The notes beneath the pieces are model-generated. The model searched no databases. It saw only the letters and a list, made by a program, of their open reading frames with translations, and was not told the origin of the DNA. This document shows, piece by piece, positions 1,656 to 22,356 of a DNA stretch of 25,431 nucleotides. The stretch comes from a virus: the IMG/VR virus record IMGVR_UViG_3300032288_000156, positions 1 to 25,431 of that record; one strand, written 5' to 3'. Numbering within the stretch: position 1 is the stretch's first letter; each line of letters begins with the position of its first letter. A program made the translations under genes and the position numbers.

Positions 1656-3121
1656 CAGACATAGTACCACGCATCCCCGGGTACAGCAACGAGTCAATGT
1701 GGAGGCACTGTGAAACTTTGAAGTCCGTAGTAATTGAGACCAAAGAAGTCAAGATTGGTAGAGGAAGAAGGGTGGAGATACTCAAGGTACCAAAGCATGG
1801 CGTAGACAAGGAGATTGTAGATAGAATCATCAGGAGTTGTGAGCATTACAAAGAATTAAATCAAATGGAAAAACAAGGAGGAGTAACCTTCAGAAGTTAT
1901 CAGACAGACATAATAGATAAGGGCTCCCGTATTTTAAACGAACATGGGTTCTTATATCTAGCAATGGAGGTAAGGACTGGAAAGACTCTCACAAGTCTTG
2001 GCATTGCAGAGCAGTTAAAGTCTTGGAAAGTATTATTCATTACAAAGAAGAAAGCAATCAGCACGATTGAGGCTGACTATAAACTATTGAATCCTGCATA
2101 CTTCCTAACCGTTATTAACTACGAGAGCCTTCACTTGGTGATGGACAATGAGGAGTGGGACTTGATAGTATGCGATGAGGCGCACAGCATGGGGGCATTC
2201 CCTAAGCCTAGCAATAGGGCAGAGTTGGTGGCTTATGTGATTGGAAAGTATAGACCTAAGGTGATACTGCTATCAGGGACACCAACCCCTGAGAGTTATT
2301 CTCAGATGTACCATCAGGTATATGCCATACCAAATAATCCATTCGCTGAGTTCAGAAACTTTTACAGATTCTGTGACAAGTTCGTCAACGTAACACAAAA
2401 GAAAATCAACGGCCTATTTGTCAAAGACTACAGCGGTGGATTGGATACCATCATCAAATCGATGGAGCCATATACAATTAATTACACGCAAGCAGAGGCT
2501 GGATTCAAAGCAGAGACTATGGAGGAGGTGCTGGAGGTTGAGATGAGCGACAGGACTTATTCGATGATTAAGAAACTCAAGCGGGACTTGGTGATTGAAG
2601 GCAAGGAGGAAACCATATTGGCCGACACGCCTGTCAAGTTGATGATGAAGGTTCACCAGTTGTGCAGTGGCACGATAAAGTTTGAGAGTGGAAACAGCAT
2701 GGTGCTTGACACCACGAAGGCACAGTTCATTTATGACAACTTCTGCACACACAAGATTGGAATCTTCTACAAGTTCAAGGAAGAGTTGAACGCGCTCAAG
2801 CAAGTGTTCGGTGATACCCTGACTACGGAACTGAGTGTCTTTGAAGACACTGACAAAAGCATAGCCCTGCAGATTGTATCAGGAAGAGAAGGCATATCCC
2901 TGCGTGACGCTGACTTCTTGGTCTACTACAACATTGATTTCAGTGCTACCAGTTATTGGCAGAGCAAGGACAGAATGACCACCAAAGATAGGCTCGAGAA
3001 TAAGGTGTTCTGGGTCTTCGCTAAGGACGGGATTGAACAAGAGATTTACAAGGCAGTAACAAAAAAGAAAGATTATACATCAACCATTTTAAGAAAGACT
3101 TTTATTTATGAAATACTCTAG
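1652..3121 (+). CDS. SNF2-like superfamily 2 DNA helicase/ATPase
   Basis: A 489-aa protein with the two RecA-like lobes of SF2 enzymes. Visible motifs are a Q-motif region FRSYQTDI (80-87), a variant Walker A MEVRTGKT (105-112), a DEAH box (175-178) within LIVCDEAHS, and motif III LLSGTPTPE (206-214). In lobe 2, SGREGISLRDADFLVYYN is motif V-like and YWQSKDRMTTKDR (435-447) is motif VI-like, equivalent to the QxxxRxxR arrangement of SNF2 proteins. Phage members of this family remodel or unwind DNA in replication and recombination. ATG 1652 overlaps the previous stop by four bases, and the 3' end overlaps the downstream nuclease gene by 14 bases. The first 75 residues are specific to this protein. 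An 18-base palindrome found elsewhere in the window lies inside it at 2834-2851. Confidence 0.88.
   Translation: MTDIVPRIPGYSNESMWRHCETLKSVVIETKEVKIGRGRRVEILKVPKHGVDKEIVDRIIRSCEHYKELNQMEKQGGVTFRSYQTDIIDKGSRILNEHGFLYLAMEVRTGKTLTSLGIAEQLKSWKVLFITKKKAISTIEADYKLLNPAYFLTVINYESLHLVMDNEEWDLIVCDEAHSMGAFPKPSNRAELVAYVIGKYRPKVILLSGTPTPESYSQMYHQVYAIPNNPFAEFRNFYRFCDKFVNVTQKKINGLFVKDYSGGLDTIIKSMEPYTINYTQAEAGFKAETMEEVLEVEMSDRTYSMIKKLKRDLVIEGKEETILADTPVKLMMKVHQLCSGTIKFESGNSMVLDTTKAQFIYDNFCTHKIGIFYKFKEELNALKQVFGDTLTTELSVFEDTDKSIALQIVSGREGISLRDADFLVYYNIDFSATSYWQSKDRMTTKDRLENKVFWVFAKDGIEQEIYKAVTKKKDYTSTILRKTFIYEIL
2834..2851. repeat. Palindromic hairpin repeat, copy 1 (inside helicase gene)
   Basis: AGTGTCTTTGAAGACACT, an inverted repeat with a 7-bp stem and TTGA loop. 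With the preceding G it is identical over 19 bases (2833-2851) to the terminator stem at 24900-24918. Here it is inside the SF2 helicase gene and encodes SVFEDT, with no downstream T-run. Confidence 0.7.
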
Positions 3122-4415: not shown

Positions 4416-4803
4416 AACTGAAGCAGACCTGCAAAGAGAAAAGAAAGCAATAGAATTATTTGTCAGCATTTTTAGTGGGTCATATCTAAAGTTAGACCCA
4501 AACGACATAGACTACAAGGTGTTTGATAAGGACAAGAACCTTATCGCTTACGCTGAAGTAAGAGGCAGGATTAGGTCAATAAGAGACGCATACCCGCTTC
4601 CAATCGCCGCTCGTAAATTGGTCAAACTAATTGACAAACGAATCGTTCCAATCCTGATATGGGCTTGTGATGATGGAATCATTTACGCCAAAGCAAATCA
4701 ACTCAAGGGAGAGATTAAGTGGGGAGGAAACCCTCCCCGTGATTCTGAGTTGATGGTGTATTACGATAAGCAGAAGACCATGAGGTACGTGAGGTATGTT
4801 TAA
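4405..4803 (+). CDS. Possible PD-(D/E)XK-fold protein, last gene of the plus-strand module
   Basis: A 132-aa protein, starting within the last codons of the previous gene. The segment NDIDYKVFDKDKNLIAYAEV (33-52), then RGR, has the layout of a PD-(D/E)XK core: Asp36 on one strand, a hairpin, then Glu51-Val-Arg53 in place of Glu-x-Lys. This is followed by a helix (IAARKLVKLIDKRI) and a central strand (VPILIWACDDGIIYAKA). The Lys-to-Arg change leaves activity uncertain, so it may be an inactive or atypical nuclease. Its stop (TAA 4801-4803) overlaps the stop of the convergent giant gene. A perfect 7-bp hairpin lies in its last quarter. Confidence 0.6.
   Translation: MTFETEADLQREKKAIELFVSIFSGSYLKLDPNDIDYKVFDKDKNLIAYAEVRGRIRSIRDAYPLPIAARKLVKLIDKRIVPILIWACDDGIIYAKANQLKGEIKWGGNPPRDSELMVYYDKQKTMRYVRYV
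4721..4738. other. Perfect GC-rich hairpin near the convergent gene ends
   Basis: GGGGAGG (4721-4727), a four-base loop, and CCTCCCC (4732-4738) form a perfect 7-bp stem. It lies inside the last plus-strand gene and 62-79 bases past the stop of the minus-strand giant gene. There is no T-run on either side, so it is not a classical intrinsic terminator. It could slow polymerase or protect the 3' end of the structural transcript; that is inference. Confidence 0.4.
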
Positions 4804-7800
4804 TCCTCCCCAAACTTTTTCCCACCGAATCCTCCACCGCTTTTCCTTTGTCTCTTCTTAGTGCCTTCGCCAAATCCTGAAGAACCAAAGCCATCCTCTT
4901 TAGGAGTGTAGTTGTACATCCTGTCCTTATTTGCTCTTTCCTCCTTAGCCTCTTTTTCCTTGGCTTCACGCTCTTCTTTGGTTGACTGGTACCATTCTGA
5001 CCCCTCACCAAAGTTCTTCTCATACAGGGCACGATTATAGCGCTTCAGGTCTTCCTTATTCTCGTATCCTCCAAGCAAGTCCACTTCTTTCTGTTTGCTT
5101 CTTGCAGCGGCCTTCTCGGCCTCTTTGATGCTGGAGTAGATTGAGTTGTTCACAGCTTTACGCACATCCTTGTAGAAAGGAATAAATCCTAAGTGACCAA
5201 GCACCTCCAATGGGATTCTCTCCTTCACTGTACGCTCTTCTCTTTTGATTGCATCCAGTTCTTTCTTGGTGGTCTTGCCTGTTATGATACGAGTTCTGTT
5301 TTTGTAAATCAAATCAGCCGTATTTAATGCAGGGCCAAGTGAACCTGACATACTCATAAGAAGATTAGGCAAGTTGTCGTTAGGCCGGTCTTCTCTAGGG
5401 ATTAGGGAGTAGGCAATGCCATCCTTGTAAGGGTCATACTCTCCCTCTCTCAAGAAGTCAAGATACTTTTCATTAATCTCCTCAAGACCATAGTTGATTG
5501 CAAGTTTGGTAGCATTACCGAAGTCTCTTCCAAAAAGAAGTGAAGAGAATGTACCTACAAGTGACTGGCCAATTTTTTGCATCAATGACTTCTCAGTTTC
5601 ATCCTCCTCATCGTCAAACCCAAGCAATCCCATGATTCCACTAGCCAACATTGAAGACAGCAAAGTGTACACCGTCATACGTGTAAACACAGCACCAAGC
5701 ATTGCGGCTCCTTGTTTCTTGGATAGTGAACCGTCTCCAACCAACGCATAGATAGCGGTACGTGCAGTCATGTATTCAAATATCAAGAAACGTGTCATGT
5801 AATTGTTGAAGTTGTTGAACGCCTTTGCCCATCCACTTTGATTAGGCTTCAGCGTTCCCTTCAGAATACCCATGAACGCATTGTCGGTAGCACCAGTCAT
5901 TACTGACCTTTCATCTGCCAGTTTCTTTGACTGCTCGATTGCATCCTTGTTGGCCTCCATGTAGGCTTCATTATTTTCGGCAATCTTTTTGAAGTCTACG
6001 TCATTTCCTGTAATGCTTTTGAACTCATTAGCAAATGAGCCAAACCATAAAGGTCTCATCACAATTTTATCTGGCGTAGAGATTATAGTATCTGCAGTCA
6101 GCTCAATAACATTCTTAGGCTTCTTGATTGTAAGGTTGTATATCTGTTGCATCTTGTTGAACACTGGGTTCTTCGAGCTGCTGCTTTGAATACCTGCGGC
6201 TTGATTTAGAATAGAAGTATCAACAAGTCTTCCAGACAAGGTATCTGCAGGGAAGATTCTATTTGTTTGCTTACTGTTTACATTCTCCAATATCAAAGGA
6301 GCATCGGTAGACATAATGATGTCTCGATACTTGGTACCAGTAGTAAATGCCTTAGGGTCTGCCAACAATGCAAACGATACGTTTGAGGCTAATTCAGCAG
6401 CAAACCTTCCTGTTCCAGCAAGCACAGCACGGTATCCCTGCTTACCAATGAAGTCAATTACCTCATCAGCAAATGTGTTCTGCAGGATTGAGTTGGTAAG
6501 TAGATTGGTTACAGACTCTTCAAACGCACCTTCAATTGCATTCTTGATTTCTCTTTGCTCCTTAGGTAGTCTTCCTTCTTTCTCCAAATCTGCAGTTGCT
6601 TGGTTGATTGTTCTGCGTGCAGTACGGATAGGCTCAGTCAGGTTGTAGTCTAGCAACACAAACTTGGCGCCACGCTGAGCGGATGCAAAGACATCGAAGT
6701 TCAAAGGCTTAGCACCCTTGGTTCTTGTTATCAAAGACTTCGCTCTTGTGGACGGTCTACGTGAGTTGTTGGCCTGATTAAGGAAGTCAGTAGCAGCACT
6801 CATATCAAGCGGCTCAGTGTCGTGCAACACGTTCAGGTGAACGTAGTTGTTCAACGGGTCGATTGCATCGCCACGGATGATTGCTGCAGTGTATTGCGCC
6901 TTATCTTTTAGTGACTCATTGATACCACGAATATCCTTGATGGCGTCCTTCTCCGCTTGGTTGAAAGAGTTGTATAACTTTTCAATATCAATCTGACCAT
7001 TCGTTGTGTACTGGTCAAGAATATCCTGTAGCATATTTCCATCACGCTCTCCGAATCTTGACTTGCCTTCGTCAATATGCTTGATGGTTGCTTTCAAGTA
7101 GTCGGCAGCAGGATTTACTTGCTGGCTACCCTTGTTTGATTCATACTCAAGTTGAATCATGTAGGTCATCATCTTGAACTTGGACATCAATGTTTTGTCC
7201 GGGTTAAGTTTGAATGACTTGGCAACCTTTGACTCAGCGTTCTCCAAAATGTTTTGAACCTTCTTGAGCTCAGCCTTAAAGTTTGCCTCGCCTTCAGCAG
7301 CTTTCTCAAACAACGCATTAAATATGTCCTTAGTCTTGAAGTTACCAAACACTTGGTCAATGTAGAACAATGGGTTTCTTCTTACCAATTCAGAGATACC
7401 ACCTTTCTGACTTCTGATAATAGCAGCCTTTAACTTGGAATAAAGCGCAGAGAATGATAATGGCTTGGCCGTTTTAATTGCGCCGGCAATCACCTTACCA
7501 TTATTGATAGCATTCAGTTTCTCAACCATTACCTGAGCGTAGTGAGGTAAGTAGTTATTATTGATATTGCTTGTAACCTTGAGTAGATTTTTTAAGTCTG
7601 TAAGGTTGAGCTTCATCAAGTTTTCTGGAGAAGTTTCTTTAATCAACTTAGCCAATCTCTTAGCCAAGTTTCTTTCATCCTGAGATGGAAGCCCTTCAGC
7701 ATTTACCTTTTGCTTTTGTAGGACGGAGATACTTTCATTTTTCTTTTTAGCAATCTCCTCATCAGACAATGGAGTTGGCTCAACCTGAGGAATAATGTCC

Positions 7801-10800
7801 TGCTTATACTTACGCATAAGGTCAGCATCGTCCTCAGTTATCTCACCTTCCCTAACCATGTTCTTCAAACTAGCAGCGTAGTCCAAATCACCGTCATCAA
7901 ACACTTGGTTATCTGACTTGCTGAACAACTCAGCCAATTCATCAGCCCTTGACTGCTCATTGTTGATTTCATCTAGTATGGCATCCACGTCTTTCTTAAC
8001 CACCGACTTCTCCTCAAGAGTAAGTACTGCCTCACTTGCTGAGAACATATCTAGCAACTCAAGGTAACGCTCAAGAGAGTTATCAGGGATAAGGTTTGGA
8101 TTAACTGCGAATAGTTTCTGCAATGGCAACATCAGGCCATCAGCGATACCAATCTTGGTCACAATGTTCTTGCGTGCTTTCGCTACCCTGCTGTTTGCCT
8201 TAGCAATCTTGCTGTCGTACTCAGCGTCAGCAAAAACTTTAGCCATGTAATCCACAAAGTTGGACACAGACACCTCATTAAGGAGGTTGACATTGCCAAA
8301 CTTAGCGATAATGTTTGCCGCTTGGATGGCAGTTATCTTGCCTTCCTTAGCCAGACCACGTATCTCTTCAGCCAAGTCTTTGGATACATCTCTTGACAGC
8401 TCACGAATCCTTCCTATAATTTGCAGCTTCTCCTTTCGTGATACGTTTGTAATGTCTTTTAACACGCCTATAACACGTCCAATTGATGCTGCCTTACGTG
8501 GACCAACACCCATCTTAATTCGTGCCTCACGCTCCATTATTTTGCGCTGTGCGTCAGTTGCATTTTTATATACCTCTGAGTTGCGAATCATTGTATCTAG
8601 GTTGGATACAATCTTCTTATCGGTAATTCCTCTTGATTTTTGACGAGCGATTAAAGCATCAGCCTTAGTCATCAATGCATCATACTCCTTTTGAATAGGT
8701 ACGATTTGACTTACTGCGTTGATGCCATTTACTACTTGCTTAACGGTTACACCATTGTCTTTTGCTACCTGCTTGATAGCATCAGCCAATACCATACCTG
8801 CCTCTACCAATGTCCGAATACCTTTCAGTATGTTCTTCATTATAGGCAAAGCAATGTTCACACCAAGCGTTCCTTTCTCTAGGTTCTCAATGTCTTTGAT
8901 AAGACCATCAATACCATCAAGAATCTTTTGGCCGGTGCCTTTTGATTTAGGGTCAAGTTCAAGAAGTTCATCCATCTTTCCAGCCACTTCCTCTACAACT
9001 TCCTCCTCAGTCTTTGGCTTTTGTCTGGCCTTCTCACGAGCCTTAGCCTTTTCTGCTTTAACCTCAACAGTCTTAGTTTCTTTGGCTGTTTGCTGCTGTT
9101 GCTTTTCAGCTGCTTTCTGACGCTGCTTATTTACTTGCTCAGCAAGTGCAACCTTAGCATCTCTTTCAGTATTAAACTCCTTGCCTTTATTTAACTTACG
9201 TCCATTTGAATCTTCGACAGTAAATGACAACCTGTTCTCGCCATCAGATAGTTTAGTTATTGTTCCAATAGGATTTCCATTGGCATCAGTAGCCTCAACA
9301 GTTATTGACGAAAGGAATTTGAATTTTCTACCAGCAATATCTTCTCTTGTCCCTTCCTCAAACTCAATAGCATTCTCCTTAACGTATGGCTTAGTCTTGA
9401 CATCATTTGCCGTGATAGGAGCAAGCACCTCCACTGGGGCCACTTCCTCTTGTGTCTTTGAAGACACTTGATTAATGTACTCAGTCAATGGGGCTGGCGT
9501 TCTGCCTTCGTTACCCTTGTCCCAGTTTGTTTTGTCTGCAGTATCTACCTTCTTCTTGAATGCAATTACATCATCCATGAAAGACTCAGTGAGAGTCGAC
9601 TCAGGATTTGTAAATGCGTCATAATATAGGTTGCTCAACTTCAGGGCATCTGCTCTCAGGTTGTCATCGACATTCACGTCTCTGTGAATCTCATAAAAGT
9701 AATGACCAAGACCATCTGGGATTTCCCATCCAAGTCTCTTTCTAATTTTTTCTAATCCCTTTTTAGCTGAGTTCTTCTGCTTCTGGTCCCCGGTAAACCC
9801 GGCTACACCATCTTTGGCCAAGTATCCATCGGTAGTGATTACTTGAATCTCGGCAATGATACCATTAGGAGTTCTGAGTTCAATGAGTCGCTTTGGATAA
9901 CCAAGGTTGGTATCTTCTTTTACCCTTCTCAAATCCTTGTCACCCTGAGCGACAGGATACTTTTGGTCTATTGAATTAAAGACCTTGTCTGCGTCTGCAT
10001 CGTTTTGAACAACAATGTTTACCCGAGCGCCATCTCCTAGTCTCTCAGTAAATGAGTTGTACCATCTGATAGTTTTAACAGACGCTCTCTCAGGACGCTT
10101 GATTGGGAATGGAGACAAGGAAGCATTGAGGTTCTTGATAGCATCTGCCGCTATCTTCTCCACCTCAGTCTTGGCTTCTTCATAAAGAGCCTTGTTAACT
10201 TCAAAAGTTCTCTGAACAGTAGGCTGAACATCTCTGTTCAATTCATCAAACCTGTCCTGCTCTTCTCTTGATAGTTGCTTACCTTCTTTTTGTAATTGGA
10301 TTTGTTTCTTACGTAGGTTAGCAAGCTCAGTGCTTCTAACTTCTACGTTAGTTATTGCTTCTTTGAACGATTCAAGAACGTTACTTCTATCGTACTCTCT
10401 TGTCTGCTCTTCGGTTCCTTCATTTCTGGCTCCTTGGTAAGAAGATTTTTTGATTCTAACCTCTGGCGTAAACGAGACATTAGGTCCGAGTACATCAACG
10501 GCTGACTTTTCTGTGGCGTCTGATTTTGCATCGAGGTCTCGCTTTCGTTCTTCATTTTGTTCGTCTTCATTTAGTGGTGAATCTTCAGGAAAAAATTTAA
10601 TTACAGATACTTTGATTTCATTATTGTTAATACTAAAAGCATCAACACCATTATTTTGTAGGTTAACTGACAGGTCTGCAACCTGTTCGTCAGTTATTGG
10701 TTCAGCAAATGTATAAATAATTTGCGGATAATGCATCAAGCCATTCTCATCAAACTCAGTAAGAGGGGTTCCTCGTCTTCCTTCAACGACATCTCTCTCA

Positions 10801-13418
10801 TAATTTGACTCTGACTCAAGGATAAATGCATCTTGAGAATACTTCTCAGCAAAGTCAAATAGCATCTTGCTCACAGACTCAGTGTCTGCTTGCTGGCTTA
10901 TTGACAATACCATGTTCAAGGATGGTTCAAACTTACCGTCCCATAATCCTCTCTTATCGGCACCAAATGCCACCGCTACTCCTTTTACCTTTGATACATC
11001 GTCAATTATTTCTTGCTTAGCATCGTTGAGTATCTGGGCTTCAGTTTCCTTTATCTTGTCAAGAGTCTCCTTGCTTTTCTTTTTACTGAAGTCTTTAACC
11101 AACTTGTCATATTTAAGTGACAGAGTTTTTATTCTCTTTGTTAGAGGTGATGCAGCACGAACAGTGGCAGGAGTAATCAATACAGATACATCCCTTACCA
11201 ACTTAGGTGCAGGCTCTACATCTTGACTCACTAATTCCTCCACCTCTTGAGGTGCTAGAGGAGAAACTACAGGCTCTACTTGAGGTTGAATAAACTCATA
11301 TACATTTGTAGTTTTTACTTCCTCAACCCCTGTCTCTCTATTATATACTTTGTTTTCTTTCTGACCTATTACTCTTGCGTATCCAAGGTCAGTAAGTTTT
11401 TCCCAAACTCTTAAAGCCTGAGGAGATATACCTGATGTATGCTTATCCCACTGAGTACTTTCTAAAGAATACCCTAATTCTTTTAGCTTATTACCAATTT
11501 CTATATACGCATCAAGTCCATACCCCTTTCCTCTTGGAGCGTTTTCGTCAAATCCTATTTGTACATCTGCGATATATGCTGTTCCGTCAGGAAGCACATT
11601 AGCATTAAAGTATCCGCTTTCACCTGTCGGTGTAGTTATGCTGCCTCTAAGTGATGGTCTATCTTCAGTTGGTAAAGCCTCTATATTTATTTGAGTTACT
11701 TTTGCTTCTTCTTGGACAGCTTCTTGGGGAGCGACTTGAGGTTCTGCTTGGGGTTCTCCTTGCGCCACTTCTTGGCTAACTCCGGCTGTTGGCTGAATAG
11801 GTACTTGACCTGCTGCTTGCTCTTGAATGGCATCTTCTTGTATGGGTTTAGTTTCTATTTCGTTTGCGACTATCTTGTACTTTGTTGGCTTGTATGGGTC
11901 TGGTGATTGAACTTCTTCTATTGTAAACTGAAGTCCCTTGTATGCTTTTGAAAGCATATCAGACATAGACATGGCCTGTTCCTCATTGTCTAACTCTTTA
12001 GTCATCTCCATCCTGCCAGACTCATCTCTAATAAATCCAAACTTGGAGTCTCCGTAATCAAGAATAACAGGTTGAACTATTTCCTCAGGGACATCTTTTT
12101 TAGACCCAATTAATAAACTTGGAGCCTGAACACCTGCAGCGCCAAACATACCAGCCGCGTATGCATCTAATGCTTGAGTTAAGGTTGGAGCTCTTAATTC
12201 GCCTTTAACCCCAAGTCCTTTAGCTGCACTAGACACAACTTCTTGTGCGACTTCAGTTGCTCCCTCAACCTGACTATTTACTAGTATGGTTAAAGCTCTT
12301 CTTCTTAAATCTCTTTTAATGTTGTCTAATCCAAATGCATCTAAAATCTTTTTCGCACCAAAAAGGTCTAGTGCCCCAGATATAGCGCCGCCTATTTCTG
12401 CTAACGCAACTTGGTCCTTGCCTTGTTGAATAACTTGTACAGGGGTTATACCTTCTTTCTCTGCTATTTCTTTTACGGTTTCAAGATAAATGTTTCCTGA
12501 TTCCATTGCATAACTCATACCACCACCAGTAGCTATTGCTAATGGAACTTGAGCAGCTGTTTGACCAACAGACGAACTTATGAAGTTAAGCAGGTCATAC
12601 CCATCGTTCACCTGAGTTAATGAAGATATTACATCGCTATTACTTAAATCCTTATTAAGTTTTAATGCCAACTCTATTGAGGCTTGAGTCGCTTTATTGC
12701 CTCTTGCTATTTTTTCAGCCAGTTGTTTTTTGTAATCTCCAGCCTTGTAAGTTGTTGTCCTTCCACCTCTTGGGTCGGTAAGGCTAGGCATCTCAATTAA
12801 TTCATCATCTGGAACATCGGATATTGATTTCAATCTCCTCATGTCAGATTCTACAAATTGACTTTGTTTTTGAGCTCCCTTAGCTTCCATAGCAGAAGGT
12901 ATTTGCTGGGATAAAGTTTCCCAAAACTTCTTACCAAAGCTTATGATTGGATTGGTCTCTAACTCAACTTGCTTTTGCTCAGGCTTAACAGATGATATTT
13001 GTTCTGGCAATGGCTTTCCTACCTGATAACCAAACTTAGCCATCTCAGGCTGCTTCTGCTTAGGTATGGTTACATCAGGTTCTTTCTGAGTAAATGATGG
13101 GGTCTCTTGTACAATCTGACCAGTACGTGGCTCAAACTTTGTAAGCTCCGAACCACCATCCACAAATGGTGAAACCGTATCTTTTTTTTTTACTTCTTGT
13201 GGTGCTGGTGCCTGAGCATCAAAACTAGCAGCGCCTACTCCGACCAATGTCTTGTAATCATCTAATGATTTAGCATAACCATTATTTAAAGCCAAGTTAT
13301 AGGAAGCATTAAGCGCATCTGGATTAGTAGATAGCAATTGCTTGAAGTCATCAACTGACTTCTTGTATCCATTTTGTACCGCCAGATTGTAAGATGCTAA
13401 AAGAGCCTGTTCGTTCAT
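4800..13418 (-). CDS. Giant multidomain (polyvalent-type) virion-associated protein, T7 gp16-like by position
   Basis: A 2872-aa protein. Residues 8-29 and 38-59 are two copies of an ASYNLA..NGY.KS.DD.K.L repeat. Hydrophobic stretches occur near 280-302, 416-436 and 2578-2601 (YTLLSSMLASGIMGLLGF). Residues about 590-708 look like a GNAT fold with RGKGYG at 629-634. Residues about 800-945 form a globular unit resembling the large-polyvalent-protein-associated class. Residues about 1095-1250 resemble a RelA/SpoT synthetase fold. A K/Q/E-rich coiled coil spans about 1426-1470, and the tail is Gly/Lys-rich. As the last gene of an operon after 13-, 14- and 15-like genes, it sits where T7 encodes gp16, the largest ejected core protein. 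I see no lytic transglycosylase motif. Injection with the DNA, membrane insertion and effector activity are inferences. A run of ten A (coding strand) at codons 76-79 is a possible slippage site. Confidence 0.8.
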   Translation of the reverse strand: MNEQALLASYNLAVQNGYKKSVDDFKQLLSTNPDALNASYNLALNNGYAKSLDDYKTLVGVGAASFDAQAPAPQEVKKKDTVSPFVDGGSELTKFEPRTGQIVQETPSFTQKEPDVTIPKQKQPEMAKFGYQVGKPLPEQISSVKPEQKQVELETNPIISFGKKFWETLSQQIPSAMEAKGAQKQSQFVESDMRRLKSISDVPDDELIEMPSLTDPRGGRTTTYKAGDYKKQLAEKIARGNKATQASIELALKLNKDLSNSDVISSLTQVNDGYDLLNFISSSVGQTAAQVPLAIATGGGMSYAMESGNIYLETVKEIAEKEGITPVQVIQQGKDQVALAEIGGAISGALDLFGAKKILDAFGLDNIKRDLRRRALTILVNSQVEGATEVAQEVVSSAAKGLGVKGELRAPTLTQALDAYAAGMFGAAGVQAPSLLIGSKKDVPEEIVQPVILDYGDSKFGFIRDESGRMEMTKELDNEEQAMSMSDMLSKAYKGLQFTIEEVQSPDPYKPTKYKIVANEIETKPIQEDAIQEQAAGQVPIQPTAGVSQEVAQGEPQAEPQVAPQEAVQEEAKVTQINIEALPTEDRPSLRGSITTPTGESGYFNANVLPDGTAYIADVQIGFDENAPRGKGYGLDAYIEIGNKLKELGYSLESTQWDKHTSGISPQALRVWEKLTDLGYARVIGQKENKVYNRETGVEEVKTTNVYEFIQPQVEPVVSPLAPQEVEELVSQDVEPAPKLVRDVSVLITPATVRAASPLTKRIKTLSLKYDKLVKDFSKKKSKETLDKIKETEAQILNDAKQEIIDDVSKVKGVAVAFGADKRGLWDGKFEPSLNMVLSISQQADTESVSKMLFDFAEKYSQDAFILESESNYERDVVEGRRGTPLTEFDENGLMHYPQIIYTFAEPITDEQVADLSVNLQNNGVDAFSINNNEIKVSVIKFFPEDSPLNEDEQNEERKRDLDAKSDATEKSAVDVLGPNVSFTPEVRIKKSSYQGARNEGTEEQTREYDRSNVLESFKEAITNVEVRSTELANLRKKQIQLQKEGKQLSREEQDRFDELNRDVQPTVQRTFEVNKALYEEAKTEVEKIAADAIKNLNASLSPFPIKRPERASVKTIRWYNSFTERLGDGARVNIVVQNDADADKVFNSIDQKYPVAQGDKDLRRVKEDTNLGYPKRLIELRTPNGIIAEIQVITTDGYLAKDGVAGFTGDQKQKNSAKKGLEKIRKRLGWEIPDGLGHYFYEIHRDVNVDDNLRADALKLSNLYYDAFTNPESTLTESFMDDVIAFKKKVDTADKTNWDKGNEGRTPAPLTEYINQVSSKTQEEVAPVEVLAPITANDVKTKPYVKENAIEFEEGTREDIAGRKFKFLSSITVEATDANGNPIGTITKLSDGENRLSFTVEDSNGRKLNKGKEFNTERDAKVALAEQVNKQRQKAAEKQQQQTAKETKTVEVKAEKAKAREKARQKPKTEEEVVEEVAGKMDELLELDPKSKGTGQKILDGIDGLIKDIENLEKGTLGVNIALPIMKNILKGIRTLVEAGMVLADAIKQVAKDNGVTVKQVVNGINAVSQIVPIQKEYDALMTKADALIARQKSRGITDKKIVSNLDTMIRNSEVYKNATDAQRKIMEREARIKMGVGPRKAASIGRVIGVLKDITNVSRKEKLQIIGRIRELSRDVSKDLAEEIRGLAKEGKITAIQAANIIAKFGNVNLLNEVSVSNFVDYMAKVFADAEYDSKIAKANSRVAKARKNIVTKIGIADGLMLPLQKLFAVNPNLIPDNSLERYLELLDMFSASEAVLTLEEKSVVKKDVDAILDEINNEQSRADELAELFSKSDNQVFDDGDLDYAASLKNMVREGEITEDDADLMRKYKQDIIPQVEPTPLSDEEIAKKKNESISVLQKQKVNAEGLPSQDERNLAKRLAKLIKETSPENLMKLNLTDLKNLLKVTSNINNNYLPHYAQVMVEKLNAINNGKVIAGAIKTAKPLSFSALYSKLKAAIIRSQKGGISELVRRNPLFYIDQVFGNFKTKDIFNALFEKAAEGEANFKAELKKVQNILENAESKVAKSFKLNPDKTLMSKFKMMTYMIQLEYESNKGSQQVNPAADYLKATIKHIDEGKSRFGERDGNMLQDILDQYTTNGQIDIEKLYNSFNQAEKDAIKDIRGINESLKDKAQYTAAIIRGDAIDPLNNYVHLNVLHDTEPLDMSAATDFLNQANNSRRPSTRAKSLITRTKGAKPLNFDVFASAQRGAKFVLLDYNLTEPIRTARRTINQATADLEKEGRLPKEQREIKNAIEGAFEESVTNLLTNSILQNTFADEVIDFIGKQGYRAVLAGTGRFAAELASNVSFALLADPKAFTTGTKYRDIIMSTDAPLILENVNSKQTNRIFPADTLSGRLVDTSILNQAAGIQSSSSKNPVFNKMQQIYNLTIKKPKNVIELTADTIISTPDKIVMRPLWFGSFANEFKSITGNDVDFKKIAENNEAYMEANKDAIEQSKKLADERSVMTGATDNAFMGILKGTLKPNQSGWAKAFNNFNNYMTRFLIFEYMTARTAIYALVGDGSLSKKQGAAMLGAVFTRMTVYTLLSSMLASGIMGLLGFDDEEDETEKSLMQKIGQSLVGTFSSLLFGRDFGNATKLAINYGLEEINEKYLDFLREGEYDPYKDGIAYSLIPREDRPNDNLPNLLMSMSGSLGPALNTADLIYKNRTRIITGKTTKKELDAIKREERTVKERIPLEVLGHLGFIPFYKDVRKAVNNSIYSSIKEAEKAAARSKQKEVDLLGGYENKEDLKRYNRALYEKNFGEGSEWYQSTKEEREAKEKEAKEERANKDRMYNYTPKEDGFGSSGFGEGTKKRQRKSGGGFGGKKFGED
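9452..9467. repeat. Palindromic hairpin repeat, copy 2 (inside giant gene)
   Basis: GTGTCTTTGAAGACAC, identical to the core of the copies at 2835-2850 and 24902-24917. The stem is GTGTCT/AGACAC with a TTGA loop, and the flanking bases match 17 of 18 positions of the longer copies. On the minus strand it is read as coding sequence (VSSKTQ), unrelated to its reading in the helicase gene (VFEDT). Confidence 0.7.
13182..13191 (-). other. A10 homopolymer in the giant gene (possible slippage site)
   Basis: On the coding strand, ten consecutive A follow GT, giving GTA AAA AAA AAA GAT (V76-K77-K78-K79-D80). Adding one A would place a TGA after about 16 further codons. Losing one would open a frame of a few dozen codons. 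Either would yield a short product holding mainly the two N-terminal repeats. Slippage is possible at such runs but unproven here. Confidence 0.4.
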
Positions 13419-16142: not shown

Positions 16143-16553
16143 TTATAGAAGTTTTATCATTTCATTTGTGTATGAATCACCTTTAATGTAGCCAAGTTCC
16201 TCGTAGGTTCCTATAAGGTTTTGGCTTTTTATTAGAGCGTAGACATACTTACTGCCAGTATTCTTGCATATCTCAGTCAACGCTGACACCAGTAACTTAA
16301 TGGCGTTTTTTCTTTGTGGCTTCTTGTTGTATTCCTTGCTGGATATTATCCAGTCAACCCAAGCCACTTTGGAATTAGTAAGGTACATATACCCTGCACA
16401 AACTGGTGTCTCACCGTCATAAACTATGATTCCACCTTTGCCATTGTTAGGAAGGAAGTCCTTTTGTGGAGGCTCCCATCCCCACTGCTTCCACCAACCA
16501 ACAAGAATGTCCTCGTAGTCCGTGTCCTGCAGTTCTCGTATATATAGTCCCAT
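16143..16553 (-). CDS. GNAT-like acyltransferase fold protein, T7 gp13-like
   Basis: A 136-aa protein with a single GNAT-like fold: an N-terminal strand-helix LYIRELQDTDYEDILVGWWK, a central beta pair GGIIVYDGETPVCAGYMYL (about 40-58), strand VAWVDWIISS (63-72), basic loop KEYNKKPQRKNAI (73-85) where a GNAT has its CoA-binding loop, helix LLVSALTEICKNTG, and the classic GNAT ending YVYALIKSQNLIGTYEELGY. The CoA loop lacks a clean R/QxxGxG/A, so activity is doubtful. T7 gp13 is also about 138 aa, GNAT-like as I recall it, and sits just before gp14. The match in size, fold and position makes it a probable virion morphogenesis protein rather than a metabolic enzyme. Confidence 0.75.
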   Translation of the reverse strand: MGLYIRELQDTDYEDILVGWWKQWGWEPPQKDFLPNNGKGGIIVYDGETPVCAGYMYLTNSKVAWVDWIISSKEYNKKPQRKNAIKLLVSALTEICKNTGSKYVYALIKSQNLIGTYEELGYIKGDSYTNEMIKLL

Positions 16554-16574: not shown

Positions 16575-17378
16575 TTAAGGGTAACTTTTCATCACGTCAG
16601 ACTGAACAGCAAATAGCTCAACCTTAGCGTTTGAAGTGTTCTGTATATTGAATGTACAATAGTGGCCTAATACTCCATGAGATTCAGCTACAGAGTTCTT
16701 GATGTACAAGAAGAATGCATTTTGAATAGGAATTGGAGTAGTGCCCGGTATGGTGGTATCAATCGTTAATTGATTCGTTCCTGCAGGAAGATTTACCGTA
16801 ATGGCTGTAACTTTACCAGCAAGAACCGGAGCAGTATATGGGGGCAATGCAAAGTATAGCAAGTCACCAATACTGATGATGCTGCCAATTTGAACTGTAG
16901 TTGCAAACTTTACCACGTTACCTCCAGTGACCTCATTACTCTGACCAATACCATTGACACTACGTAGCGCAAGTTCACCAACTGTATTGTTTCTAATGAA
17001 CGCAAAGAATGATGCTTCCTTTTTCTCAAACCAGTTAGCATCAATGAATCCTGAGAACTGCAAGTCAGTAGTCAACTGTGCTGCCCACTTGGCATCACCC
17101 TCTAGGTTAATGGTCTTGAATAACTTGTTCTCAAGGGCACTTGTATTAAACACACTCTGAATTGAGGTGTTTGTAAATGCTCCTGAAGGATTGCTTATTC
17201 TTACAAACCAAGGGCCATAGAATGTGTTTCTGTCATCATTTACGTTATGACGATAGAGGTTCCCGCCCTTGAAGGTGTAGAAATAGTTGTTCATCCCAAT
17301 CATGTAATCAGGATAAAAGGAGTAGAACGATGGCCACCCCTGACTTGCTTCGCTATATGTTAGTGTATAGTTTGCCAT
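16575..17378 (-). CDS. Conserved tail/structural protein
   Basis: A 267-aa beta-rich protein. The N-terminal block SEASQGWPSFYSFYPDYMIG and the segments NNYFYTFKGGNLYRHNVNDD and FYGPW are strongly patterned. I recall a very similar block in structural proteins of crAss-like and other Bacteroidetes phages, where exact roles are mostly unassigned. The C-terminal half consists of beta-strands separated by Pro/Thr/Gly turns, as in tail hub accessory or fibre-base proteins. It is flanked by another small tail protein and the gp13-like gene, so it is placed at the tail end of the particle. Start: ATG 17378, three bases after the upstream gene. Confidence 0.6.
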   Translation of the reverse strand: MANYTLTYSEASQGWPSFYSFYPDYMIGMNNYFYTFKGGNLYRHNVNDDRNTFYGPWFVRISNPSGAFTNTSIQSVFNTSALENKLFKTINLEGDAKWAAQLTTDLQFSGFIDANWFEKKEASFFAFIRNNTVGELALRSVNGIGQSNEVTGGNVVKFATTVQIGSIISIGDLLYFALPPYTAPVLAGKVTAITVNLPAGTNQLTIDTTIPGTTPIPIQNAFFLYIKNSVAESHGVLGHYCTFNIQNTSNAKVELFAVQSDVMKSYP

Positions 17379-17381
17379 AGT

Positions 17382-17873
17382 TTAACAAGGTCCTCCCCAT
17401 AATTCTGTTTCACCTATTGCGCTTACCCGAAAAGTTTGTCCACTATTTTGCGCAGAAACTGTCTTATACCAAGTAGATGGAGTACCACCATTTAGTGGAG
17501 TAGTAGTAGCCGCTGGGTCTGTATATAAAACTTTTCCTTGAGTAACAACGGCATCATACAGGTCGGTAGCCGTACCATTGATATATACCGGCAAAGGAGT
17601 CCCACTTCCTGCACAAGCTCCTGATTGGGTATCCCATCCTAAAGGAATAGGAGGCGTTGTGGTTACGTCAAAGTATATGGTAAAAGACTGAGTAGTTGCA
17701 CAAGATGGGCAAGAAGCCTGAGGTAACAATACCCCACCATCTTGTTCTCTTACAATTGTTCCGTCCGAATAGAATCCATCAGATGCAACAGCTGTTAATG
17801 TTGGATTTGAGTAGACTATTGTTGCCGTGCCAAGTGAAGGTGCGTCTAAGTAAAATGTTGCTGATGTTGCCAT
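17382..17873 (-). CDS. Small beta-rich tail protein with CPSC motif
   Basis: A 163-aa protein, Thr/Ser/Gly/Pro-rich, with predicted beta-strands throughout and no long helix. N-terminal block ATFYLDAPSLGTATIVYSN is followed by SDGFYSDGTIVREQDGG. Cys55 and Cys58 (CPSC) precede TQSFT (61-65), a local match to CVACGVSQSFT in the 1493-aa protein encoded just upstream. The C-terminus is WGGPC. These features suit a tail fibre or hub-decorating module; the Cys pairs may form disulfides or bind metal. The start ATG is one base after the stop of the 1493-aa gene. Confidence 0.6.
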   Translation of the reverse strand: MATSATFYLDAPSLGTATIVYSNPTLTAVASDGFYSDGTIVREQDGGVLLPQASCPSCATTQSFTIYFDVTTTPPIPLGWDTQSGACAGSGTPLPVYINGTATDLYDAVVTQGKVLYTDPAATTTPLNGGTPSTWYKTVSAQNSGQTFRVSAIGETELWGGPC

Positions 17874-17874
17874 A

Positions 17875-20800
17875 TTAAGTTGGTTCTTCGCAGCCGCAAC
17901 AAGCGTCTAGGCTGCTGGTTGGTGAATAACATAGTACTACTGATGGTGCCGGCTCAGGGTCGCACTCACAGCAAGCATCCAGCGCACTGACGTCTGAGTA
18001 GCACAATTCGATTGGTAATGAATTTCTGTAATCCCAAATCAGATAAAGGTAATTACCAGTATTAGGAACTACAAATGAACCTGAGTAAACTCCAGCGCTT
18101 CCGGTTATAGGTGATACCACTGTAGATGCTGCAAGCAATGACGATATACCAACAGAAGTGTTTGGATATAATGTATTACTACGAACATATCTGAACTTAT
18201 CTTGCTCCAATACAAAATTAAATGTATCAGGATTAATTTTATTCGATATAATCTGTAATGTAGAACCATTTATTGGAATACCTCCAAATCCCTGAGGACC
18301 TGATATGGTATCATACTGGGATACCACAGGGCTTGAATCATCAAAAGCAAATATAACAGCATTAGATTGCAATGGTGAAACAAATGCTCCAGCGGTGTAT
18401 CTGTACTGATTATGAATTGATTGCCCTGAATCAACAACGCTAGTCAATGTTACCTTGACAATAGTCAATGTCTGTGGAACTGGACAGTTAGGGAATACAG
18501 TCAATTCAAGCGGGTCACTAGCAACTATCGTTACAGTCGCCGTATCTACATTATTCTTGTCCTTATTGAATTGCAAAGTTCCTGATGTAGTCACAAGACC
18601 AGAAGTCACAGTGTCTCCATCGTAAGTTACTGATATAGTAAAGTCAGCGGAAGAGCCAGCAGGTACGGTATAGTTGAAGTTTGTTATTCCAATTGGCTGC
18701 CCTAAGTCAACGCAATAAGTAACAGTGTTACCAGTAGGCACAGTGAATGACTGAGATACCCCACAAGCAACACATCTTAAAGGTATAGGCAACTTCTCAT
18801 CGTTTGTTGACAAAACGTATTCATTTAGATACGGGTCGTAACCACCAAGCTTCTGAGTATCGAATGACTGAATAAATTCATCACGGAACCAAGTACGCAT
18901 ACCTAGTTCAGATATAACAATCAATTGGTCTCCCTTTAGATTAAGCACCGCTCCACGCTTCACGTCAGTAAAGAACCTGTCAGGTCCCCACTGCACGTAA
19001 CTCTCAGGGTTAGCGCTAATACCATACTTCTCAAGTCTAGCAATCTGATTGCCCAACACCTCAGGTACAGAAGCAATAACGCCTCCACCAGTAGAGTCTG
19101 AGATAAGGTTCTTGCTTGCAAGCACGTAAGAGATTTTGTCCTCCTGTAGAACAAGGATGTCAGTCTGTCTTCCATCCATGATATAGATGTCTCCAAAGGA
19201 TGGCTCCAACACTTTAAAGTTGATTAATCCTAAGTTGAACTCATTGAGCTTATTTACATTTGACTCAGCGCTATAGACACCACTGTACGTAATGTCAGCA
19301 AATCTATCTGCAGCCTTGTAGTCCTGAGCAGACACGCTAGTAACTCTGTTACCAAAATTGAAGGAAGCCCCTACAATTGAATCACGAATCTTGTAACTTT
19401 CTGCTCCATTACCGAATGAGAAACAGTTAAAGAACTTAGTGTCAACAATAGCAGGAGTACCAGCACCTACGTTTTGATTTTGGATATTCCCCTGATGGTT
19501 TCCGTTTACGATAGCGAAAGACATTTCATTCTCAAAGAACACGTCAGGCAAAGCGTCTGATGGAAGCGTCTCAAAGATAATGCTATTGTCTGCACGGAAT
19601 ACAGTAATGCTAACCTGAATGTTTGAGTCTCTATTACGTGGTTTAAACCCAAATCCTGTGCAGGACTCGGTGCCGGTAACCAAGAAGAAAAGCTCATTGG
19701 TAGTGGTATTTCTGTAGAACTTGTAATAGTTTGTGCAAACAGCTGTACTTATGGTTGGAGGAGTAACATCTGTAAAGCCTTCAAATACGTTATTAATCTC
19801 ACAAGCATTATCGCTAACAACCTTAATGCTATCGTTTAAGTATTGCTCAATATCTTCTCCAACAAACCACTGGTACATATTGGGATATGAGTTTGCTGAT
19901 ATGAATGTTTTCTCAAACGTATTTCTTCTCTCCTCACAATCACTTTCTGCTCCTGCTCTGAATTGCTTTATTGACATAACAATCCTACTTCCTGAAGGCA
20001 CATCATAATCTAAATGCGTCCAAGTAGAAGGGTTACCAGCTTCAGTGCCGGGTATATTCATTGGGTATCTCAAGATAGGATAATCTCCTCCTTGTCTTTC
20101 CTTAACCGTAATTACTCCCGGGGCAATAATTGCATTTTCTTCCTGAACAATGTTGAAACTATTAGGATTAATCTTGGCATATACCCCAGCCGGCACAGGA
20201 ATAAATTCAGTAGGGTCATCCTCTCTTGGTATTTCAAGAAATCCTGAAGGCTGTGAAGACTTCTCAAGAATAGTAGCATACACGAAATTTTGTGTTGGAC
20301 CTTCTGAGTCAGCCTTTACAATAAGACGGTCACCGGTCTCAACTTTTCTTGCGTTCTCGCCTTCAAGTAAGAAATAAGCACTATTGCTGTTCGGGTCCTC
20401 AAAAAACAAGTTGCAATAAATCGTCTCGTAATTCTCTTCATCAGGCTTGATAACAAACTTGTATCTTGTTGCCCATACTGGAGGCTTCTGTGTAGCAGGT
20501 ATTGTGACCTGTATAGAGTTCTTCTTAGAAGACAAACCGCAAGGGATATGTTCTGTATTGTTTAGACTAACTAAAGCCGTTGTAGCCCTATTAAAATCAT
20601 CCATATAGACAATACCAATCTCGTAGTCTCTATTGCTATGGAGACTTTGAGTATTACCTATCTCTTGAAACGTAGCCTCAGAGAATGATACACTATAGTA
20701 CTCGTAAGCAATTTGAGTAGGCGATGAAGGATTGTCTACATATCTCATTGCTGGAATCTGAAGACCAATCTCATCACTTGACGGTGAAGTCACAATACCA

Positions 20801-22356
20801 ATAGGTTGGTTTATACCACTGATTCCACTAGCTGTTTTATCTAACGCTCCTAAGTTAGTAGGTAGAGCACAGTTAAATTGGTCAGTAAAAGTAATCCCAT
20901 TACAAGAGTTTGCTACAGTCTGGATATTAAATACTGTTCCGACAGCATCTTGAAACTCTGTACTAGTAGCCAGTTGATATACTGATATGTAATCCTTTGA
21001 TAAGAAAAACGCAAAATTTAATCTAATGTTCTCACTAACCTGAGTAGGAAACGGCGTGTCTCCAGACCACTGGTCGTGAGTTAGTGTCAAGCTCAAATTA
21101 AATGCAGAGCCCTCAACTAAATCTTTACCAGTTAAATCAATATACACAATTGAATCTGGAACCGTTACTGCTCCATCAATAGAGTAAGAACCTGACTCAA
21201 GAGTTGTTGTTGTAGTAGTAAGACCAATCTCAGTAGACACTAATGAAGTGCTATACTCAAACTTTATAGGTTGACCTTGTGAGTCAATTAGGTCATATCC
21301 TTCAACGTAGTTACCATACATTAATCGGTTGCCCATAATCGTTTGGGCCTTAGCAAAACGTGGCACGTTATCGTATAGCCTCAACAATTCTGACTCTGAA
21401 AGAACAGTAAATATCTTGCTATTTGTAAATGTGTATTGCTCCTCAGTATTGTCAGTCAATCCTAAGATTTGCTTATCCAACTTCTCAATTACACGGATGA
21501 TGTTTCCATCAGCCTTTTTAAATAAAAGGTCAATACCAACTACAAGCGGTCCGCCTGTGTTATAGGTGATGATTGCTGAGTTAAAGAAGTTGGTCATTCC
21601 CTCATTGAGGAAACTGTCAATGCTAAAGTTAAATGCCTTTGGTGCAAACGCAGGAGCAGACCACTGTGAGGTGGCACTGTACTCTCCGTCAGCATATTTG
21701 TATCTGTAAGCAAAGCAAATAAAGCGAGTCTCCAAGTAGTTCTCTTGACCATTGTTGACTATTGGCTGTACTGCCGGTGCCTCCACCGGTGGCTTCTTAA
21801 TTACCAACAAAGACTCAGCGCTTACTGCATCAATGTTAGAAACAGGATTTGGATAGCTCTTAGTGACGTTAATTACTCTTGGAGGATTATAGTCATCGGT
21901 AAAGAACAAAAGCTTGTTATCCAATATGTCTACCCCTGTGATGAGGTATTTCGGATTGAAGTTCAACGTGGTGTTGATACCACCCCCATCATTAATAGAT
22001 ACAACGTGATACGTAAGAATGTTTGTATTTACGTTAAAAGAAACTATCATGTCCAATTTACCAGTAGCACCTACAGGGAAATTGGGGTCGTGAATAAACC
22101 AATAAACAGACTCAGTAGCGCTGTTCTGAATAGCACCTATACATCTAGCGGAAGTACTAAGAAGTGTTCCGTTAATATATGCTAAAGAGGTCAGAGGCAA
22201 GTTCCCCTTGGTGTTTTCAATAACGCCTATTTCGGACTGTTCAGTTGAACCCATCCTTACGTTCATAGCGTCAATATATTCACCTTCAGGAAGCAGTCGT
22301 TCATCAACGACTTTATTCATCCTACCCGCTACAAAGTTTCTTGTAAGTTTTGTCAT
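17875..22356 (-). CDS. Large tail hub / muzzle-like protein
   Basis: A 1493-aa protein. The N-terminus NFVAGRMNKVVDERLLPEGE (6-25), then YIDAMNVRMGSTEQSEIGVI, is a block I recall from large podovirus tail proteins in Bacteroidetes phages, described as stabilisation or muzzle proteins and comparable to P22 gp10 and T7 gp12. Repeated beta-strand units run through about 1100 residues, and the segment around 1070-1165 (EDKISYVLASKN, WGPDRFFTD, RTWFRDEF) looks like propeller blades. After about 1190 come Ig-like modules with C1195-C1198 (CVACG). The protein ends in two CYSxxSxLDACCxC repeats (1452-1465 and 1476-1489). It would form the distal tail hub contacting the ring proteins encoded just upstream. 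Exact homology cannot be shown by eye. Confidence 0.7.
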   Translation of the reverse strand: MTKLTRNFVAGRMNKVVDERLLPEGEYIDAMNVRMGSTEQSEIGVIENTKGNLPLTSLAYINGTLLSTSARCIGAIQNSATESVYWFIHDPNFPVGATGKLDMIVSFNVNTNILTYHVVSINDGGGINTTLNFNPKYLITGVDILDNKLLFFTDDYNPPRVINVTKSYPNPVSNIDAVSAESLLVIKKPPVEAPAVQPIVNNGQENYLETRFICFAYRYKYADGEYSATSQWSAPAFAPKAFNFSIDSFLNEGMTNFFNSAIITYNTGGPLVVGIDLLFKKADGNIIRVIEKLDKQILGLTDNTEEQYTFTNSKIFTVLSESELLRLYDNVPRFAKAQTIMGNRLMYGNYVEGYDLIDSQGQPIKFEYSTSLVSTEIGLTTTTTTLESGSYSIDGAVTVPDSIVYIDLTGKDLVEGSAFNLSLTLTHDQWSGDTPFPTQVSENIRLNFAFFLSKDYISVYQLATSTEFQDAVGTVFNIQTVANSCNGITFTDQFNCALPTNLGALDKTASGISGINQPIGIVTSPSSDEIGLQIPAMRYVDNPSSPTQIAYEYYSVSFSEATFQEIGNTQSLHSNRDYEIGIVYMDDFNRATTALVSLNNTEHIPCGLSSKKNSIQVTIPATQKPPVWATRYKFVIKPDEENYETIYCNLFFEDPNSNSAYFLLEGENARKVETGDRLIVKADSEGPTQNFVYATILEKSSQPSGFLEIPREDDPTEFIPVPAGVYAKINPNSFNIVQEENAIIAPGVITVKERQGGDYPILRYPMNIPGTEAGNPSTWTHLDYDVPSGSRIVMSIKQFRAGAESDCEERRNTFEKTFISANSYPNMYQWFVGEDIEQYLNDSIKVVSDNACEINNVFEGFTDVTPPTISTAVCTNYYKFYRNTTTNELFFLVTGTESCTGFGFKPRNRDSNIQVSITVFRADNSIIFETLPSDALPDVFFENEMSFAIVNGNHQGNIQNQNVGAGTPAIVDTKFFNCFSFGNGAESYKIRDSIVGASFNFGNRVTSVSAQDYKAADRFADITYSGVYSAESNVNKLNEFNLGLINFKVLEPSFGDIYIMDGRQTDILVLQEDKISYVLASKNLISDSTGGGVIASVPEVLGNQIARLEKYGISANPESYVQWGPDRFFTDVKRGAVLNLKGDQLIVISELGMRTWFRDEFIQSFDTQKLGGYDPYLNEYVLSTNDEKLPIPLRCVACGVSQSFTVPTGNTVTYCVDLGQPIGITNFNYTVPAGSSADFTISVTYDGDTVTSGLVTTSGTLQFNKDKNNVDTATVTIVASDPLELTVFPNCPVPQTLTIVKVTLTSVVDSGQSIHNQYRYTAGAFVSPLQSNAVIFAFDDSSPVVSQYDTISGPQGFGGIPINGSTLQIISNKINPDTFNFVLEQDKFRYVRSNTLYPNTSVGISSLLAASTVVSPITGSAGVYSGSFVVPNTGNYLYLIWDYRNSLPIELCYSDVSALDACCECDPEPAPSVVLCYSPTSSLDACCGCEEPT

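Follow-up and report, generated by a model that had tools for sequence, protein, structure and literature searches.

What do two neighbouring, cysteine-rich genes of an uncultured virus have to do with each other, and with the virus tail? The question is raised by IMG/VR record IMGVR_UViG_3300032288_000156, of which we analysed positions 1 to 25,431 (25,431 nucleotides, hereafter the window), and in which the minus-strand genes P0001 and P0002 both carry conspicuous cysteine motifs. An initial annotation had called P0001 a hub protein, had taken a CxxC-xxx-QSFT string common to both proteins to suggest that an Ig-like or metal-binding module had been duplicated, and had proposed that the cysteine tail of P0001 is a possible cross-linking or swappable end. 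Our analysis suggests, at close to even confidence, that P0001, P0002 and P0007 (22356-16575) form one tail-tip assembly, in which the P0002 cassette would be docked by its N-terminal module, B, onto the cysteine motif at the end of P0001, A, through putative inter-chain disulfides.

Searches of Pfam and PHROGs identified P0001 as a muzzle (tail-tip) protein instead of a hub: it matched PF25731 crAss_MUZ (1.4e-10; 40.4 bits, cut-off 27), over residues 6-233 only, and phrog_14478 (3.3e-234), and it has relatives in Elemovirus, Baltivirus and MW202828. P0007 matched PF25729 crAss_MUZ_C (1e-10; 42.3 bits, cut-off 27) and phrog_38031 (2.4e-72). In gp44 of Bacteroides phage crAss001 both Pfam families lie on a single chain of 1371 residues, and in an elemovirus muzzle (L092; L numbers denote the related loci compared) MUZ_C is likewise within the muzzle chain, whereas P0001 and P0007 are separate open reading frames (ORFs) with P0002 between them. 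When gp44 and L092 are aligned with P0001 and P0007, the strand of P0001 that ends in NEYVLSTNDEKLP continues directly as ANYTLTYSEASQGW of P0007, which locates the break in the muzzle between P0001 and P0007; the first residues of P0007 (aa 2-37) matched PF25731 positions 1187-1222 at 14 bits, under the cut-off. At the break P0001 has ~300 additional residues, and there is one additional gene, P0002. Judged from this alignment, a crassvirus-type muzzle is divided here between P0001 and P0007, the gp44 equivalent of the break lying inside one chain. By analogy with the gp44 domain description, as given in PMC10172136, the break point would be a hairpin of the beta-propeller. A sequence search of the PDB returned no match for P0001 or P0007; with a muzzle fragment Foldseek found only two PDB matches below 0.001, at template modelling scores of 0.08-0.15, and the top match in a viral library was an unnamed protein (E-value 1e-33, 37% identity).

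The additional gene keeps its place among relatives, for which two collection searches covered the best 80 of 249 and the best 80 of 212. Module B, 57 residues long, was found 131 times in 104 of 122 non-redundant loci; a muzzle ORF was present in 104/104 loci with B, and MUZ_C also in 92. Gene order was counted over 92 loci with one muzzle ORF and one MUZ_C ORF, 30 more of the 122 not being scorable. A single separate B gene lay between the two muzzle ORFs in 71/92; another 12 combined a separate B gene with a B inside the muzzle ORF, six had two B genes, and one (L092) had a single fused muzzle and MUZ_C ORF. The remaining two were scored as lacking a B gene; of these, L143 does have one and L091 has none. 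B also stands after A inside the muzzle ORF in L018, L019, L021, L026, L033, L043, L059, L082 and others, and in L082 and L228 the fused muzzle-B form is the only one in the available stretch. These observations bear on the proposal that P0002 is a free accessory, such as an assembly factor, that sits in the split muzzle by chance and stays outside the virion. The gene is indeed named a putative glycosidase in one annotated relative, with no match in PHROGs, but in the fused forms that B module belongs to the muzzle polypeptide itself, and the gene holds its position between the muzzle halves, so that we regard a free accessory as very unlikely. As a separate observation, the muzzle ORF of L009, L096 and L180 (one contig) is broken just before motif A while that of near-identical contigs such as L010 is intact; this is probably a frameshift or a sequence error.

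P0002 itself had no match in Pfam (E-values up to 0.05) or PHROGs (up to 0.01); five cassette genes of relatives scanned in Pfam gave no match either, and weak phrog_13374 matches appeared in 2/7 in PHROGs. Full-length matches to P0002 were limited to L002-L008 (66-93% identity), and seven more loci covered residues 1-154 at 31-32%. In 177/183 muzzle-cassette pairs the start of B falls between codons 2 and 15 of the open frame. The predicted local distance difference test score (pLDDT) of the P0002 model was 69-92 in blocks of residues 1-50 and low after C58 (mean 55.2). The module B model resembled the choline- and glucan-binding hairpin repeats of CROP, CbpJ, LytC and DSR-E (Z 2.4-3.3 over 39-45 residues), a model-based likeness that we treat as a lead only. 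Looking for a repeat of B, we found none with hhalign at the P0002 C-terminus (E 1); some other cassettes do have weak B-like matches close to their C-terminal end. In the window, the P0001 stop codon TAA is followed by one base and then the P0002 ATG. Fusion of the two proteins by frameshift or read-through was considered and set aside; since the spacing of the two genes varies among relatives, ordinary translation of neighbours is preferred. Outside the viral loci, a search of a genome collection for a host gave weak matches to part of module B in two bacterial contigs of Flammeovirga (L093, L094), which could belong to a prophage or a surface protein.

What follows B is not inherited as steadily as what surrounds it. 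We compared 85 genomes pairwise, taking the first 1150 aa of the muzzle as its body and counting the part after B as kept when it was homologous over half its length. It was kept in 24/27 pairs at 90-100% body identity, in 60/87 at 80-90%, in 150 of 358 at 70-80% (208 not) and in 316 of 1032 at 60-70%. Pairs at 70-80% body identity had a median identity of 74.6% in MUZ_C and 73.7% in B. The pair L016 and L133 illustrates the pattern, with identities of 91 in the body, 92 in MUZ_C and 77 in B, followed by tails (360 aa and 159 aa) that do not match each other. These alignments show the part after B to be exchanged while the flanks and B itself stay alike.

On the muzzle side, the exchanged region is bounded by motif A, C-x8..10-CC-x-C, which occurs twice at the end of P0001. 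Among relatives it comes after the conserved strand YLYLIWDYR in 76/79 distinct recognised anchors, a count in which 15 muzzle ORFs had no anchor recognised by the script. The two P0001 copies are identical at 25/42 DNA positions, yet all cysteines are kept; on these figures the doublet is clearly not due to chance. A scan with a DNA pattern for the common form of motif A found at least 120 stretches, of which 119 loci were examined: among the matches listed, and with a muzzle query devoid of motif A, 111/119 lay in a muzzle ORF, one in a B gene, three in other ORFs and four where there was no ORF of at least 45 aa. A muzzle profile that contained motif A gave 113/119, and the motif-free figure is the one we use. 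A narrower pattern, for the short form only, gave 24 loci, namely 14 muzzle ORFs, three other short ORFs and seven without an ORF of at least 45 aa. Relatives do carry the tail motif of the initial annotation. Downstream of motif A come more A copies, B, a laminin-G-like domain, bacterial Ig-like stretches or other cysteine-rich repeats; known adhesin-type domains in this position are Laminin_G_3 (1.1e-13) in L039 and seven Bact_surface_Ig-like stretches in L050. By eye, a further cysteine-framed repeat of very roughly 70 residues, ending in C-x-C, recurs after motif A in, for example, L027, L028, L038, L049, L054 and L056.

The cysteines of A and B change together across the gene boundary. 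In our first set, L149 and L159 had the only anchors one cysteine short (SCFNC in place of DACCxC), and they also had the only B modules without the second cysteine of the CxxC; L043 and L059 have CxC in B and so still two cysteines. Searches made from the muzzle side only recovered two more genomes in which A was affected, L170 and L296, and both had lost the B cysteine, as predicted. The SCFNC form was found in four stretches, on the L159 and L149 contigs, in L170 and in L173, the last without such an ORF; a search for the L296 form of the motif returned its own contig only. In the final table of 182 distinct pairs, A and B were both complete in 177 and both lost in four, the loss was confined to B in one (L328) and to A in none (Fisher 1.1e-7, ignoring kinship). 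Ten of 183 rows had departed from the main pattern. Four of these had losses in both A and B. Re-reading by eye showed both to be complete in L372 and L364, where the spacing is longer, and in L234 and L271, where the wrong anchor had been picked; L378, whose contig ends in B, was left out, and L328 was retained as a true exception. Likewise, among 79 distinct short muzzle tails 75 have a complete last motif A, and the other four are those of L149, L159, L170 and L296. The earlier idea of a cross-linking or swappable cysteine end is borne out to the extent that the tail bounds the exchanged region and co-varies, in a few events, with a cysteine of the next gene.

We propose that P0001 and P0007 form a broken muzzle in which the P0001 end at the break would consist of two extra beta domains and then motif A twice. 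Module B of P0002 would dock on motif A and be locked there by one or more inter-chain disulfides, the top candidate bond joining the second cysteine of the 'CC' in A to the second cysteine of the 'CxxC' in B. The part after B would then be exposed, and it could therefore be exchanged with the muzzle untouched; this exposed part may bind the host surface. The fuller plug-and-socket arrangement, in which A on the split muzzle is the cysteine socket, B the plug of an exchangeable tip protein held by inter-chain disulfides, and the host-contacting part is traded among viruses while the muzzle, with both halves of its propeller, stays unchanged, strikes us as tenable, if somewhat short of an even chance.

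Several observations weigh against this proposal. By parsimony the cross-gene co-loss amounts to ~2 events, and tree-aware sign tests on it gave p values of 0.5 and 1, with too few pairs. L328 is an exception, in which motif A is complete while B reads CPSY, with a CC slightly further on. The table scores A by the first copy that follows the conserved strand, and an inner copy in L088 is short of one cysteine. The AlphaFold2 model of L019 was poor in motif A (~58-64 in the first copy, <50 in two others) and had no contact between A and B. The window has two A motifs per B, and eight A cysteines are therefore unbalanced against the four of P0002. The cytoplasm is reducing, so disulfides would need to form late. 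Host binding is argued by analogy from domain types and position, the P0002 tail having matched no family. As for the exchange, retention of the part after B shows no steady fall at lower body identity (380/938 pairs at 50-60%, 431/1121 at 40-50%), a plateau that one would expect from the reshuffling of a limited stock of cassette types.

A and B are also adjacent in DNA, and because of this one recombination could carry both changes. With 16 bases separating the second motif A from the start codon of P0002, the co-loss may be hitch-hiking: P0002-type tip proteins would share the region with the muzzle, A and B would never touch, and each would have its own disulfides. The small number of co-loss events and the L328 exception fit this account, but it sits poorly with the odd counts, a single loss on each side leaving A with three cysteines and the end of B with one, with the position of B after A in the fused forms, and with the 177/182 pairs complete on both sides. 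We consider it unlikely, though of some weight.

A contact between A and B would also be compatible with a metal site, such as zinc, shared in trans: the four cysteines of A and two of B add up to six ligands, the four genomes with losses on both sides retain three and one, so that co-loss would take a six-cysteine site to a four-cysteine one, and the cytoplasm favours metal over disulfide. Set against it, no metal-binding Pfam family matched P0001 or P0002, and other cysteine pairs of the same proteins vary two by two, as disulfides do. Further, the report on the solved crAss001 tail (PMC10172136) describes inter-chain disulfides between tail proteins. We judge the metal site to be distinctly unlikely.

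The two-by-two behaviour of other cysteines is seen in both proteins. In module B, an optional cysteine pair (V29 and G47 in the window) was present at both positions in 38 of 109 distinct sequences, at a single one in none and at neither in 71; at 65% redundancy the corresponding counts were 8, 0, 0 and 16. Each of the two positions needs 12 changes on a tree built from the muzzles of 96 genomes, and the six independent pairs on supported branches differed jointly (sign test 0.031). These switches may reflect mutation, or B itself may have been exchanged. In the first beta domain inserted into P0001 (~aa 1191-1296), C1195 and C1215 were both present in 34 of 37 rows, single in none and both absent in three (ignoring kinship), a fourth row without C1215 having a gap at C1195, while C1198 and C1291 were invariant in 38/38 (again ignoring kinship). 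Joint loss of the former pair and invariance of the latter point to two separate disulfides. C1195-C1215, C1198-C1291 and the optional B pair would each form an ordinary disulfide that stabilises a single domain.

This first insert is absent at the same point from crAss001 gp44 and the elemovirus muzzle. In the AlphaFold2 model of L019 it is a predicted beta-sandwich (pLDDT 92-97 in blocks 31-130); with regard to an Ig fold, the structural matches listed were led by SIDT1 (Z up to 12.0), TKSP and the GOLD, pre-peptidase C-terminal and collagen-binding domains. The model superposed on members of the latter three groups (PDB 7rrm, 5azx, 5sv5, 1nqj) with Z 9.3-10.9 and a root-mean-square deviation of 2.2-2.6 over 89-93 residues, at 4-13% sequence identity, i.e. 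as a common fold only. The second insert (~aa 1297-1445), a predicted beta domain, has confident strands in the L019 model and is conserved in the relatives' alignments.

The CxxC-xxx-QSFT string from which the initial annotation started joins this first insert (CVACGVSQSFT) to the end of module B (CPSCATTQSFT). It is the top 11-residue match of P0001 against P0002, QSFT or QTFT is kept in five aligned P0002 relatives (L002, L003, L005, L006 and L007), and hhalign aligned the end of module B with the start of the muzzle insert over 11 columns (probability <1%). On the other hand, 9/500 shuffled versions of P0002 equalled or beat the match. In hhalign the muzzle insert (36 rows) gave E 0.055 over four columns against the P0002 tail (6 rows) and E 0.37 against all of P0002, both at a probability <1%, which is no sign of homology. 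In the muzzle the CxxC is not a conserved unit, as C1195 is lost with C1215 in 3/37 rows and C1198 is invariant in 38/38, and by conservation the two cysteines have different partners; it opens a beta-sandwich, whereas the P0002 CxxC closes module B, itself found with many unrelated continuations. Because of the shuffles, the profiles, the muzzle cysteine partners and the module B context, we rejected the duplicated module and hold it to be hardly credible.

The individual cysteines are where the initial annotation had put them, in CVACGVSQSFT (C1195, C1198), CYSDVSALDACCEC (1452-1465) and CYSPTSSLDACCGC (1476-1489) of P0001 and in CPSCATTQSFT (C55, C58) of P0002, and the unusual density that it noted holds in comparison with the majority of this virus's structural proteins. 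Of the 1493 residues of P0001, 23 are cysteines (1.54%), 11 of them in residues 1-1190, four in 1191-1300, none in 1301-1445 and eight in the last 48; P0002 has four in 163 (2.45%; C55, C58, C87 and C163). Among the other minus-strand proteins, P0003, P0004, P0005 and P0010 have none, P0006 has 2/136 (1.47%), P0007 1/267, P0008 1/307 and P0009 3/261 (1.15%). Values for two plus-strand non-structural proteins are similar or above (P0011, 6/489, 1.23%; P0012, 6/308, 1.95%). The muzzles used for comparison have 10/1371 (crAss001 gp44) and 6/1493 (elemovirus).

Table 1. Features of the split muzzle locus in the window.
Feature	Position	Strand	Match
P0001, muzzle (tail-tip) protein, N-terminal and main part, 1493 aa	17875..22356	-	PF25731, phrog_14478
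Predicted inserted beta-sandwich domain, P0001 ~aa 1191-1296, with C1195, C1198, C1215, C1291	18469..18786	-	
Predicted second inserted beta domain, P0001 ~aa 1297-1445, last residues YLYLIWDYR	18022..18468	-	
Motif A copy 1, CYSDVSALDACCEC, P0001 aa 1452-1465	17962..18003	-	
Motif A copy 2, CYSPTSSLDACCGC, P0001 aa 1476-1489	17890..17931	-	
P0002, putative tip-cassette protein, 163 aa: module B and its own C-terminal part	17382..17873	-	
Module B, P0002 aa 2-58, last residues C55-x-x-C58	17700..17870	-	hidden Markov model, independent E-value 1.3e-28
Variable part, P0002 aa 59-163, with C87 and C163	17385..17699	-	
P0007, muzzle C-terminal part as separate gene, 267 aa	16575..17378	-	PF25729, phrog_38031
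P0007 start, aa 2-37; in gp44 directly after the strand equivalent to P0001 EYVLSTNDEKLP	17268..17375	-	
MUZ_C domain, P0007 aa 69-131	16986..17174	-	

Other genes of the window were noted in passing. Directly after P0007 lies a small GNAT-like acetyltransferase gene (16143-16553; Acetyltransf_1 at 17.7 bits, under the cut-off of 20.7); judged from annotation or by eye, L090 and L092 have a comparable gene after the muzzle. Positions 4800-13418 encode a 2872-residue protein with no cysteine and no Pfam match at 0.01, perhaps, from its position, an internal virion protein. A helicase-like protein with ResIII and SNF2-related matches is encoded on the other strand at 1652-3121.

The muzzle family is already known, and the literature titles and abstract openings listed by our searches, which are not proof of absence, described none of the split muzzle, motif A, module B or the cross-gene cysteine signal. 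If our proposal is true, a common kind of Bacteroidota phage changes its tip through a separate, covalently held protein and not through a fibre domain, a strand of a different chain is predicted to close the muzzle propeller, and the cysteine pair across two genes is easily testable. Motif A and module B, neither of which matched a family in these scans, would then be markers with which to find exposed tip genes in many uncultured viruses.

Collectively, the locus is best compared with four known systems. P0001 and P0007 match the two Pfam families of crAss001 gp44 in the same order, body and then MUZ_C; PMC10172136 describes gp44 as a hexamer at the tail tip of the solved virion and states that muzzles vary in length through insertions. 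Unlike gp44, the chain here is in two genes and has two beta domains, a cysteine motif and an additional gene at the break. The Flavobacterium elemovirus muzzle (NC_055853, L092) is related (32% identity over 72% of P0001) but is one chain with MUZ_C, without the inserted domains, motif A or a B gene. Cellulophaga phage phi19:3 (Pachyviridae, L091) has the same muzzle split, as gp120 and gp121, and the inserted sandwich, but neither motif A nor a B gene. The three-gene order, including motif A and B, recurs in the uncultured podovirus MW202828 from Manatee Spring (L090), which differs in the part after B, in a gene annotated as a putative glycosidase (L090 10665-11216), a name for which PHROGs gave no match and for which we found no ground.

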